Shown: positions 24,140-54,889 of the stretch, piece after piece
Numbering within the stretch: the first letter of the stretch is position 1
Layout: every line of letters starts with the position of its first letter
Origin: Candidatus Obscuribacter phosphatis
Lineage (GTDB): Bacteria; Cyanobacteriota; Vampirovibrionia; Obscuribacterales; Obscuribacteraceae
Assembly (NCBI GenBank): GCA_001899315.1
Contig: MOYA01000001.1
Coordinates: 869,105 to 933,104, forward strand
Length of the DNA stretch: 64,000 nt
Direction: 5' to 3'
Position numbers and translations under genes: made by a program
The notes under the pieces: model-generated
Seen by the model: only the letters and a program-made list of their open reading frames with translations
Told to the model about the DNA's origin: nothing
Databases searched by the model: none

Positions 24140-25201
24140 ATGCCGATGAAACTGCCCAGAGAAGAGCTTTGTCAGGTGCTTTCTCTTCAGTCTTTTGTGG
24201 CGCAGTCTCACGATGTATTCGCCAGCCTGCTTGCGCCGGGAGAGCGGTTCATAGGCGTTTATTTGAATGAGAGTGACGACTTTTTTTTATTAACCGATAT
24301 CGGTTTGCATTACATAAAAGGCGAAATCGCCCGTTTTGTTCCCTTTACATCCCTGGCTGCGATCGAGCTGAATGTCAGTCCAGAACTGGTTCTTAGGCTC
24401 AAAGACGGCAGTAAAGTAACTATCCAGGTGCGCAATTTCACCGAAGAGTGCGCCGATATTTTAGTCGTCAAGTCATTTCTCGAATCTGTACTAAAGTTTT
24501 TAGAGGTGCCTCAGCAGAGTGAGATAGGAAAGATAAGCAATGCTGAAGACTTAAAACGGTTTCTTGTAACTTACAGAGGCTTGCCTTCGGATCTCGTCTT
24601 AAGAAGCCTTGCCGGAGCCCTAGCTAGTGAAGAGCTTCCTGAAATCTTGGCAAGAGCTGGAATCGCTCGCAGTTTTTCCTCAGAGCCTCAGCTATGGCAG
24701 GCTCTTGCTGTTCTCCTCACCTGCCGCAGCGCTGAATCTCTCAAGTCCGAGCTTTCTGGTCTCGAGGCTTCTTTACCGATATCAAAAAATCAACCGATAT
24801 CGGCTGATGATGGCAAATTAGCCGAGCCATCAATTGAAACCTTGTCTCTGCTTGACGAAGGCTGTCTGCGCGTATTGGCTGATGCCATCGAAGCAGTCAA
24901 GCAAGCCGGTCTCGGTGTTCTTACCGCCGAATATCTCCTCTTCAGTTTGGCCAGAGCCTATCCTGATTCGGTAAGAGAATCATTTGGCGAGAGTTTTGAT
25001 ATTCAAAAACTAAAGCGAAGTCTGCCTAAAGAAAATGAGACTAAATCTTATGCTGGCGGCAAGACTATCTTTTATTCTCGTACCACCGTAGCAGTTTTAG
25101 AGCAAGCTCGCAGTCTCTCCTTAACTGAAGGTGATGGGCGCATCTCAGCCACAGATCTTGCTTTTGCTGCTCAGATCATCCTAGAGAAAGCTTACAGCTA
25201 A
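24140..25201 (+). CDS. Unknown protein with PH-like N-terminus and Clp-N-like C-terminus
   Basis: 353 residues, soluble. The N-terminal 115 residues read like a bacterial PH-type domain (FIGVYLNESDDFFLLTDIGLHYIKGEIARFVPFTSLAAIEL). The C-terminal 110 residues resemble a Clp N-domain repeat (LRVLADAIEAVKQAGLGVLTAEYLLFSLARA...FYSRTTVAVLEQARSLSL...ISATDLAFAAQII). These are similarities by eye. It starts 31 bp after tRNA-Val and reads towards the baeRF gene. Two copies of the AACCGATATCGG core lie inside the gene. Confidence 0.6.
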   Translation: MPMKLPREELCQVLSLQSFVAQSHDVFASLLAPGERFIGVYLNESDDFFLLTDIGLHYIKGEIARFVPFTSLAAIELNVSPELVLRLKDGSKVTIQVRNFTEECADILVVKSFLESVLKFLEVPQQSEIGKISNAEDLKRFLVTYRGLPSDLVLRSLAGALASEELPEILARAGIARSFSSEPQLWQALAVLLTCRSAESLKSELSGLEASLPISKNQPISADDGKLAEPSIETLSLLDEGCLRVLADAIEAVKQAGLGVLTAEYLLFSLARAYPDSVRESFGESFDIQKLKRSLPKENETKSYAGGKTIFYSRTTVAVLEQARSLSLTEGDGRISATDLAFAAQIILEKAYS

Positions 25202-52026: not shown

Positions 52027-52052
52027 AAAACAAACCGATATCGGTTTGTTTT
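52027..52052. promoter_or_regulatory. 26-bp perfect palindrome upstream of the transposase-derived gene
   Basis: Half-site AAAACAAACCGAT followed by its exact complement ATCGGTTTGTTTT. It lies 84 bp before the start at 52136. The core ACCGATATCGGT is shared with 54864-54889; the flank CAA replaces TGA symmetrically. It may be an operator or an RNA hairpin. Confidence 0.6.
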
Positions 52053-52135
52053 TGCACATAAATTCTCCGAAAATTTTTGAACTTTTTGCCCTCCGATTAC
52101 GTTTATAGATATGTGAGGGTTCGGAGACTATCTAT

Positions 52136-53470
52136 ATGAAATCTGACGATCTTGATCGTTTTAGTCGGCTTAAGATCTTTCTTTCTGACGAGTACGCAGC
52201 GCGTCGACAATGTCTACTTGATAAGTTTAATTCCGACTATCCTGATGAACCCTCATGCTGGAAGTACATAATTTCCAAATTGAGAGTGTTGGGCTTATTG
52301 AATTGCCGAATTTGTGGTTCGCCTGATGTCATTGTGTCTGATGATTTTAGAGTGCTTTTCTGTCAAGATTGCGCCGCAGAAAGTCGTTCTACTGCGGGCA
52401 CGTTTTTTCATGGCGTGAGGAAAGTTAGAGCTTGGCTTTTCTCTATTTGGATATCTGAACACGGCTTTTATGTCAGTTCGAAGTGGTTTGCCTCTGCTAT
52501 TTCTATAGCGCAGTCCTCTGCTCTTCATATTATTAAGTCCACTCTCCTTGCCGCAGAAAGGAACTTTGATGTTGTTGCATCCCTTGAAGTCCCCCTCTCT
52601 AATCTAAATCGTTTTTTCGCAAAGCGCACAATACTTACTCCTGCTCTGCTTAAGCCGAGTCAAGAATTAGATGAATCATTTGTCTACGACACTCACTCGC
52701 AGAGCAAACCAAATGATGATGGAAGAGAATCAGAGTCAGGAAAGAATGACTATACTGAGATTGTTGACGTGGACTTCGAAGCTATCGATACGTCTATGAA
52801 CGCAGCATCTATGAAAGATTCAGCTGCTTCCAGTTTTGACTCAGAGGCTTTGTCATCATCATCATCTTCTTCTTCTTCTTCTTCACCTCTTGAGTTTGAG
52901 GTTTCATCAGCAGTCGAGTCTGCTAACGAATGCTGCAGCTTAGATGGTCAAGAGGAGAATTTTGAAAATCATAGATTGTCCTCTGTCTATCGCTCACTAG
53001 GATCAACTCCACTTACAGTTGACCAAATCTCTGCAATAACTGGATTGGACTGGCAGGAGATTCTAGCGGCATTGACAGAACTTGAGTTTGACGGCTTAGT
53101 GACAGGGCTGGCAGGGGGCTCGTATATCTTGAGCAATGATAACGTGGACGGTGTTGTGCTCAGGTCCGAGAATTTCGCAAGTGAACAATCTAAGGGATTT
53201 GACGCTAAAGCAGACGCTGAATATACTCGCGAGAATTTCTACATTTCGGTGCGATGCTTTTTTCGTGTGATTCTTGATATCGCACACGGAGTGAGTCGTA
53301 AGTATATGTCTCTTTATCTTGCTTGCGCCAATCATCTCGTCATCGCTGATCTAGACGAAAGCTTCATGGAGATTTGCCTGCGGACTGGATATCTTGGGCG
53401 CAAGGTCCTTCGGTCATATATTGCGCCAGCCTTTCTCAAATTCGCCCCGCTAGAAGTTCCCGATAGATAA
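52136..53470 (+). CDS. IS1595-like transposase-derived zinc-ribbon/winged-helix protein
   Basis: 444 residues. Residues about 55-140 match the N-terminal zinc ribbon and helix of IS1595/ISXO2 transposases (CRICGSPD...LFCQDCAAESRSTAGTFFHGVRKVRAWLFSIWI). A Ser-rich linker follows. Near 300-345 is a DprA-C-like winged helix (LTVDQISAITGLDWQEILAALTELEFDGLVTGLAGGSYIL). The end has a transposase-like GVSRKYMSLYLACANHL. The DDE catalytic core between ribbon and end is absent and there are no terminal repeats or target duplications, so it is probably a domesticated DNA-binding protein. The upstream palindrome may be its target (hypothesis). Confidence 0.7.
   Translation: MKSDDLDRFSRLKIFLSDEYAARRQCLLDKFNSDYPDEPSCWKYIISKLRVLGLLNCRICGSPDVIVSDDFRVLFCQDCAAESRSTAGTFFHGVRKVRAWLFSIWISEHGFYVSSKWFASAISIAQSSALHIIKSTLLAAERNFDVVASLEVPLSNLNRFFAKRTILTPALLKPSQELDESFVYDTHSQSKPNDDGRESESGKNDYTEIVDVDFEAIDTSMNAASMKDSAASSFDSEALSSSSSSSSSSSPLEFEVSSAVESANECCSLDGQEENFENHRLSSVYRSLGSTPLTVDQISAITGLDWQEILAALTELEFDGLVTGLAGGSYILSNDNVDGVVLRSENFASEQSKGFDAKADAEYTRENFYISVRCFFRVILDIAHGVSRKYMSLYLACANHLVIADLDESFMEICLRTGYLGRKVLRSYIAPAFLKFAPLEVPDR
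52853..52887 (+). repeat. Trinucleotide repeat encoding poly-Ser
   Basis: TCA and TCT units in a row within the transposase-derived gene, coding for about ten Ser; slippage here could change linker length in frame. Confidence 0.8.
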
Positions 53471-53593
53471 GGAGGCAGTACTGCAAGAGCTTTATCGCCA
53501 TACTTCTAGCCTTTAGTGGGTTCAACCCTAATTTCTTGTCCCTTTTAGTTCTTATTTTGTGAGTAAGGCAAGTGGGCAAGGGTGAGTGCAATT

Positions 53594-54202
53594 ATGTTTT
53601 GGTCAAAAGAAAAAAGAGAATTTCTGCTAAGGGGGTCCGCAATTTGTTTCGTTTCTATGCTTCTTTGGCAGGGCTGCGCGCAAGCCGAGCTGGTTAGCTA
53701 TCCCTACGACTGGACAATTGAGATAAAGAGTAAGCCATTGATTCGCCAGTTTCAGTTTTCTGGATCTCAACTGAAGCAGGTCGAGAAGCTTGATATTCAT
53801 TATCATCCAGCCAAGGACAATGAGACCAAGACTCAATATGAGTATCTCTGGTATAGCAAGGGTAAGGCGCTCGGTCTTGAGAAGAAACGCAAGTTTGATT
53901 TGCCTGAGGGCGAAGGTGTTGCCATTCGGGTTACTCATAGTGCAGTGCCTACAGAAGGCGAGAAGAAGGCTTGTGCTGGAGCTGTCCTTAGAGTTGCGCT
54001 TGATGCTTTCCTAAACAAGAATCCAGTAGTGCAAGTAAGATTACCGCATTCTTCATTTAACGACATCGCCAATCGACTTGAAGAGCTGGGTATGCAGGTG
54101 GCTCCTGATAGTCCTGATGATTTTTCCGGCGGTTATAGTTCAAACCTCACACTCTATCTCTATTCTGAGCCGGACGGATTGAAGAGGGTTCTATATCGAT
54201 AG
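53594..54202 (+). CDS. Secreted protein of unknown family
   Basis: 202 residues from the ATG at 53594, chosen for GGTGAG 7 nt upstream; a GTG 12 nt earlier is possible. A signal peptide (SAICFVSMLLWQGCAQA) precedes a beta-rich domain (YDWTIEIKSKPLIRQFQFSGSQLKQVEKLDIHYHPAKD). No family recognised and no catalytic motif seen. It lies between the transposase-derived gene and pilin-like genes, ending in a terminator. Confidence 0.65.
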   Translation: MFWSKEKREFLLRGSAICFVSMLLWQGCAQAELVSYPYDWTIEIKSKPLIRQFQFSGSQLKQVEKLDIHYHPAKDNETKTQYEYLWYSKGKALGLEKKRKFDLPEGEGVAIRVTHSAVPTEGEKKACAGAVLRVALDAFLNKNPVVQVRLPHSSFNDIANRLEELGMQVAPDSPDDFSGGYSSNLTLYLYSEPDGLKRVLYR

Positions 54203-54218
54203 TTAAGTGAAACAACAA

Positions 54219-54256
54219 GAAAGAGGGTCTCATTCAAATGAGACCCTCTTTCCATT
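54219..54256. terminator. Bidirectional terminator
   Basis: A 15-bp perfect stem (GAAAGAGGGTCTCAT with loop TCAA) and T/A tracts. Shared by the secreted-protein gene and the convergent TadE-like gene. Confidence 0.85.
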
Positions 54257-54349
54257 TTTCTAAGATTTTGAGCTAGTGCCAAGAATAGATCTGAGTTTTT
54301 ATAATTCTTGAAAATTCTTCCTTCTTCGTTATTTTGATGTCTCTGAGAA

Positions 54350-54829
54350 CTATCCATCAGATTTCATGACATAGGTGATTGGTACTTTGTGGCTTGAGCT
54401 AAGTGATACGCCACCCATAATGGCTCCAACTAGAAAAGGTGGATAGATATCGATAGTGGTCGTAATTGCAACATCTCCATCTATTGCGCCACCCGTGCTG
54501 TTTGGTGGAATGTCGCGAACAGTTTCCACAGCCACTAGTGTATTTCTAATCTTTGCCGGAAAATTAGTTGAATAGAGTTTTGTTGCAACCGATAGCGCTC
54601 TTTGGTAAGGGGCTTTATCCGGAGTAAGGTTTCTTGAATCTCCGAGAGAAAATTCTGAAGGTGGACCGGATGCGGCTGCTCTTGCTGCATCTCTGCATAT
54701 AGAGTCATTGATTGCGGCGCCGATTGCCAAAATTCCAAGGTCGATTGCGGTTAGGACAATTGGAACTAGTAGCACTAGAGCTCCTACTAGTTCCGCAACG
54801 CCTTGTCCTCTAGTTTTTCTTCTTGTCAT
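54350..54829 (-). CDS. TadE-like pilus-assembly / minor pilin-like protein
   Basis: 159 residues. The ATG at 54829 gives the usual TadE start (RKTRGQGVAELVGALVLLVPIVLTAIDLGILAIGAAINDSICRDAARAAA): basic residues, a Glu after a short polar stretch, one long membrane helix and an Arg-Ala-Ala-rich region. The C-terminal part is beta-rich. TadE/F proteins assist Flp pilus assembly. Upstream, a 26-bp palindrome sits in the divergent promoter with the pilin-like gene at 55053. Confidence 0.8.
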   Translation of the reverse strand: MTRRKTRGQGVAELVGALVLLVPIVLTAIDLGILAIGAAINDSICRDAARAAASGPPSEFSLGDSRNLTPDKAPYQRALSVATKLYSTNFPAKIRNTLVAVETVRDIPPNSTGGAIDGDVAITTTIDIYPPFLVGAIMGGVSLSSSHKVPITYVMKSDG

Positions 54830-54863
54830 AATAATTTGCCATTTTGAAAACTTCGGGTTTTGC

Positions 54864-54889
54864 AAAATGAACCGATATCGGTTCATTTT
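54864..54889. promoter_or_regulatory. 26-bp perfect palindrome in the divergent pilin promoter region
   Basis: Half-site AAAATGAACCGAT and its exact complement. It lies 35 bp from the minus-strand ATG (54829) and 163 bp from the plus-strand GTG (55053). It has the same length, the same A4/T4 ends and the same core as the palindrome at 52027-52052. Confidence 0.6.

Follow-up and report, generated by a model that had tools for sequence, protein, structure and literature searches.

Two perfect 26-bp palindromes in the 64,000-nucleotide stretch of the Candidatus Obscuribacter phosphatis genome analysed here (the window) are predicted double-stranded DNA sites of the protein encoded at 52136-53470, which would bind them as a dimer, regulate its own gene and play an architectural role locally. 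We put the probability of this reading at about 0.5. A wider picture, which is more tentative, is that about twenty neighbourhoods of about 60 kb across part of the chromosome may each be organised by a dead-transposase paralogue of their own, acting through a private palindrome that is written by selection even into core coding genes, with little cross-talk. If true, a transposase domesticated by bacteria would serve as a multi-paralogue set of DNA-binding proteins, each acting mainly around its own gene. Whether many distinct protein-palindrome pairs organise or regulate bacterial chromosome segments by proximity is a testable question, for which there are dozens of natural protein-site pairs with a specificity readable from covariation.

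Palindromes of the window and their conservation

The sites in the window are the following:

52027..52052, no strand: palindrome 1, perfect, 26 bp, AAAACAAACCGATATCGGTTTGTTTT; centre 96 bp 5' of the family gene
54864..54889, no strand: palindrome 2, perfect, 26 bp, AAAATGAACCGATATCGGTTCATTTT; between divergent pilin-like genes
24292..24305, no strand: intragenic 14-bp copy inside ORF 24140-25201 (encodes TDIG), 27.8 kb upstream
24792..24803, no strand: partial intragenic copy AACCGATATCGG in the same ORF 24140-25201, one arm mismatched

Both perfect 26-bp palindromes were found where the original prediction had placed them. No other perfect palindrome of the window comes near them in length, the next one measuring 16 bp, and they share as core the 14-mer AACCGATATCGGTT. 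The palindrome at 52027-52052 is presumed to be the own (autoregulatory) site of the 52136 gene; the one at 54864-54889 lies 2.7 kb downstream. Their flanks were thought to differ in three symmetric bases: the differences are symmetric, but there are two such positions (CA vs TG). The two intragenic copies are also real, the one at 24292 being a full 14-mer and the one at 24792 consisting of AACCGATATCGG followed by C, and the copy number is, as had been supposed, above chance. With up to two mismatches ACCGATATCGGT occurs 7 times in the window (0.92 expected; 7 was reached by none of 100 shuffles), and in the host genome (5.49 Mb) there are 50 occurrences of AACCGATATCGGTT vs 0 of the reversed control, and 100 of CCGATATCGG vs 15 of the control. 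The inverted repeat at 54219-54252, with a 16-bp stem and a T run after the small ORF 53582-54202, is an ordinary intrinsic-terminator-like element and has no relation to the 26-bp palindromes.

Comparison of the flanks of 67 copies (52 independent ones once array members were removed) showed that the core is kept and the arms are variable. The claim that symmetry is maintained was borne out by the 52 independent sites, in which the left and right arms covary symmetrically to about ±16 bp, beyond the shuffled expectation, with z values of 3-6 at offsets 9-12.

The sites are strongly conserved in the sister species (G002, dS about 0.9): in the alignable blocks 29/29 host-genome sites are fully conserved, against a background of 0.24 and flanks that are 77% identical. 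The conserved sites include an array, three intragenic copies spaced by 66 bp, the core of the window palindromes 52027-52052 and 54864-54889, the 24292 copy (identical, in a context of 88% identity overall) and the partial 24792 copy. The original prediction named random intragenic copies, or arms unconserved in relatives, as the outcome that would count against it; intragenic copies do exist, but they are kept in the sister species. A site in the triosephosphate isomerase (TPI) gene reads TTA ACC GAT ATC GGT TTA in the host and in the sister species, and CTC ACC CAT CTA GGT GTG in a third species of the genus (G001). None of the 18 aligned relatives has an indel in this region, thus the site arose by substitution and not by insertion, and the substitutions altered amino acids too. 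We therefore rejected mobile insertion as the origin of the sites, given also that the orthologous sites are fully shared with the sister species.

The third species lacks the 52136 gene together with the two palindromes of the window, and the neighbouring genes are otherwise syntenic. The 14-mer was found in 20 of the 36 genomes of the bacterial family (f1) and in none of the 24 other genomes searched in the order (Candidatus Obscuribacterales) and class (Melainabacteria/Vampirovibrionia) of the host. Within f1 it occurs in 20 of the 26 genomes with a match to the protein family and in 0 of the 10 without a match (3e-5 before allowing for relatedness). A class-wide search with the 65-member alignment gave matches of about 1e-12 in most genomes, usually one in each; we assume that these are DprA itself, matched through the winged helix, and because of this assumption the protein family is taken to be restricted to f1.

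The protein family and its relation to IS1595 transposases

The gene at 52136-53470 and the parts of its product are as follows:

52136..53470, plus strand: family gene, 444 aa; IS1595 shell without the catalytic core, with a DprA-type winged helix
52208..52561, plus strand: N-terminal zinc ribbon and HTH, residues 25-142; hhalign probability 99.6, E 4.5e-25
52736..52948, plus strand: disordered Ser/Asp/Glu-rich linker, residues 201-271; AlphaFold pLDDT < 50; occupies the place of the DDE core
52985..53119, plus strand: DprA-type winged helix, residues 284-328; PF17782, E 6.7e-12
53207..53467, plus strand: C-terminal segment, residues 358-444; hhalign probability 97, E 7.6e-11 against the C-terminal end of IS1595

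The hhalign comparison was done with IS1595 transposases from related genomes, and its E-values refer to a single profile pair. The C-terminal segment proved collinear with the end of the transposases, and nothing outside the N-terminus and the final ~75 positions was aligned. The same end was identified independently by the NCBIfam profile transpos_IS1595, which matched the C-terminus of another member (L080) with an E-value of 4.2e-5; apart from this fragment NCBIfam gave no named family. All 65 aligned members have the PF17782 winged helix, and 12 of the 65 match the IS1595 zinc ribbon PF12760 at E <= 0.1. There is no convincing DDE domain in the family: PF12762 is matched, weakly, by only 2 of the 65 members (best 0.076), and the host genome has no match to the IS1595 DDE domain. 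As judged from these profile comparisons, the family descends from an IS1595 transposase, which lost the catalytic core and gained the winged helix.

The AlphaFold model of the 52136 protein consists of three ordered parts and the disordered linker. Foldseek returned only weak winged-helix matches; Pfam and Foldseek together gave matches to the zinc ribbon and the winged helix only, with no ParB fold or CTPase domain, and the protein has no HuH motif. Two other readings were considered and rejected. No relative was found in viral contigs, which speaks against phage origin; in PHROGs phrog_25593 (unknown function) matches the N-terminal domain only, with a best E-value of 1.8e-8. As to a defence system, the PADLOC matches were limited to weak ones of the winged helix, with Csa3 and MkoB.

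A profile built from six paralogues and searched in the host genome and 50 family genomes identified about 19 paralogue loci in the host, the 52136 gene among them, and members in 39 of the 50 genomes. Over 17 orthologue pairs with the sister species dN/dS is 0.13-0.27 and dS is 0.73-1.07; the value of dN/dS for the 52136 gene is 0.18.

Palindromes at and around the family genes

Several palindromes of the host genome are placed 85-115 bp 5' of genes for paralogues of the 52136 protein. Of the 66 family genes, about 46 are preceded by a palindrome or its core: 35 have a long inverted repeat (score >=12; 0/66 in shuffles, 3/66 elsewhere) and about ten others the short core, whereas about 18-20 show no obvious palindrome. 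In most cases the centre is located 80-130 bp 5' of the conserved start, and in several other genera the upstream palindromes are perfect over 40-60 bp. At four loci (L080 at G008 C9:390223, L083, L081 and L082) single genes are preceded by loop-free palindromes that are perfect over 52-60 bp, longer than what a dimer operator usually needs.

The paralogues vary in both the core and the arms of the upstream palindrome, cores differing from the usual one being AACCGTTAACGGTT, AACCGAATTCGGTT, TATCGATATCGATA, TTCCGAATTCGGAA, AAGCGATATCGCTT and AATCCGATATCGGATT. In the host, TATCGATATCGATA is the core at C1:2415297 and AACCGAATTCGGTT that at C1:1274188. In a comparison of 33 members, differences in the core are correlated with those in the N-terminal domain (r 0.36, permutation p < 0.001), with no such relation to the winged helix (r -0.04). 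Differences in the arms are correlated with those in the middle, winged-helix and C-terminal parts (r 0.26-0.31) and, to a lesser degree, with those in the N-terminus (r 0.18). All of these values are possibly inflated by shared ancestry. Paralogues that have the common core ACCGATATCGGT might cross-bind.

Further copies of a motif are mostly found within ±30 kb of the gene it belongs to, and motifs are specific to their loci. The surroundings of 15 genes (50-80 kb each) were scanned with the 22-bp motifs of the individual genes, the ±40-kb span setting the bounds of the neighbourhood estimate, and own-motif matches predominated: 11 vs a mean of 0.6 for the other motifs on contig C10 of genome G007, 6 vs 0 for every other motif on C104 of G006, and 3 vs 0 at C1:2415297 of the host. 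The pooled density of sites, 0.109/kb at <=5 kb from the gene, drops to 0.054/kb between 20 and 30 kb and to 0.013/kb between 30 and 40 kb. Around the genes on G008 C9 and G003 C1 there was no second copy within 40 kb, thus local copies are not obligatory. For most of the relatives the genome is a metagenome assembly interrupted by contig breaks. In the host genome 19 of the 36 non-upstream 14-mer sites have a cognate-type gene at <=30 kb, where 4.4 would be expected, a count reached in none of 2000 simulations. The remaining 17, the array at C1:2873773 among them, are >30 kb from any such gene and could mark lost or divergent family genes. This orphan array (L029, C1:2873773-2874001), far from the family genes found, consists of five intergenic copies at intervals of 45-57 bp.

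On C232 of G025 (1-50248, L246-L248), 50 kb hold about 26 TCAACCGATATCGGTTGA-type sites, which are often paired or tripled within one intergenic gap and are more symmetric than the gene's own upstream copy.

The data establish how genes and sites are organised, that motifs are specific to loci, that the sites are conserved, that the proteins have a transposase ancestor, and that gene and sites are missing together at one locus; binding itself, dimerisation, bridging and purpose we infer. Most likely, the 52136 protein binds its palindrome as a dimer, with one subunit on each half-site. From the covariation, the N-terminal zinc ribbon/HTH would read the core, and the winged helix and C-terminal parts would contribute to recognition of the arms. 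The site upstream of its own gene probably serves autoregulation. The remaining copies extend over about ±30 kb without regard to promoters, and through them the protein would most likely bridge or coat this stretch of the chromosome; bridging would be in keeping with two DNA-binding modules that are connected by a long flexible linker. Divergent paralogues with different palindromes would limit cross-talk between neighbourhoods.

Alternative explanations and known systems

The main rival, which we think rather unlikely, is that the paralogues are local transcription regulators, each repressing or activating a neighbouring regulon, with the intragenic sites acting by roadblock or looping. The fairly constant position of the palindrome at -80 to -130 of most family genes fits such a role, as do the second window site (54864-54889) in a divergent promoter region, the tandem operator-like arrays and the over-representation of sites between genes relative to coding space. 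However, among 20 classified intergenic sites of G025, 8 are in convergent gaps (8 are in tandem and 4 in divergent ones), 8 of the 11 sites on G007 C10 are in coding sequence, and sites occur inside the TPI and XthA-like genes. As sites also fall inside coding genes and into convergent gaps, the palindromes are not simply promoter elements, and an operator confined to promoters is rejected as their sole role; in view of these copies and the tandem arrays, the promoter-specific role originally proposed is not supported. The placement, which does not follow promoters, favours a locally acting, autoregulating, bridging or coating factor, and is the main ground for proposing architecture. In two coding genes the palindrome lies within in-frame tandem repeats (5 x 45 bp in L037 5238-6443, at C2:680.6 kb of the host, and 3 x 66 bp in L016 6181-7578), thus the DNA site was repeated at the price of an added repeated peptide.

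It is improbable that the system is a selfish, REPtron-like one, in which the protein of transposase descent, or a partner of it, would place copies of the palindrome nearby and clusters would form by local hopping. Transposase ancestry, local clustering, tandem arrays and patchy distribution would agree with it, but there is neither a catalytic domain nor a HuH motif, the TPI site formed without an indel, no common flank extends beyond the arms, and the 29/29 sites shared with the sister species at dS about 0.9 show that the palindromes have not moved recently. We find it quite improbable that the symmetry of the arms is created and preserved by template switching at quasi-palindromes, with an incidental link to the protein: hairpin-templated repair could yield symmetric covariation and very long perfect palindromes, and may contribute to the 40-60 bp arms, but the conserved core, the locus-specific sequences, the local clustering and the correlation with protein domains would be left unexplained. 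RNA hairpins or transcription terminators seem very unlikely. The flanking A- and T-tracts would suit them, and a hairpin could form from each strand; against them, the sites are placed independently of transcription and its direction, within genes and upstream of starts, have perfect two-fold symmetry through the centre, match no Rfam family and are tied to a DNA-binding protein family. Of the two readings first offered, RNA hairpin and dimeric DNA-binding protein, the latter appears to be the best, and the 52136 protein the right candidate.

None of the known systems compared is a match. As expected of a dimeric transcription factor, the position and symmetry of the palindrome 5' of its own gene are those of a putative operator, but the other sites are not concentrated in promoters, being found in coding, convergent, tandem and divergent positions. 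REPtrons (PMC8266576) also combine a domesticated transposase gene beside its cognate palindrome with dispersed palindromes and protein/palindrome covariation. TnpA_REP (RAYT) is an active HuH/Y1 nuclease, usually present in one copy per genome, and REPs are genome-wide, mostly intergenic and GTAG-tagged (PMC8266576). Here, in contrast, there are about 19 paralogues with local sets of sites and an IS1595-derived fold lacking the catalytic core, sites arise also within coding sequence, by substitution, and many of them are intragenic and locally concentrated. The copies have no common GTAG-type tag outside the arms.

Like many of the sites described here, parS sites lie near the gene of their protein. 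ParB-parS and Noc-NBS (PMC8494293, PMC8429893) resemble the present system in having a sequence-specific protein and several palindromic sites of roughly 16 bp, but here the domain matches include no ParB fold or CTPase domain, there are many paralogues with different motifs, and the neighbourhoods are all over the chromosome and not in a single origin region. HIP1 and alternate HIPs (PMC4390886) are also over-represented palindromes of a cyanobacterial lineage that occur in coding sequence as well; they are linked to DNA methyltransferases, genome-wide and of high frequency, whereas our palindrome is rare and local and goes with a family of DNA-binding proteins. A literature search found no mention of the 14-mer AACCGATATCGGTT and no paper on palindromes of Obscuribacterales. 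Locally confined protein-palindrome pairs look like a previously undescribed way to mark stretches of a bacterial chromosome.

IS1595 transposases share with the family the homologous N-terminal zinc ribbon/HTH and the C-terminal end. They differ in that the family has the linker and winged helix instead of the DDE core, is found at syntenic loci with dN/dS about 0.17, and has sites unlike the one clear terminal repeat of the local IS1595 elements. Terminal repeats of these elements were rejected as the source of the palindrome, since the only clear long repeat found (L199) does not resemble it and most loci yielded none. In Bacteroidota (Algoriphagus, Echinicola and others; L180-L188) an IS1595-type zinc ribbon and HTH are located at the C-terminus of proteins with an N-terminal region that we take to be 7TM/7TM-DISM-like; that these proteins carry the same DNA-binding end suggests a separate domestication of the IS1595 zinc ribbon and HTH.
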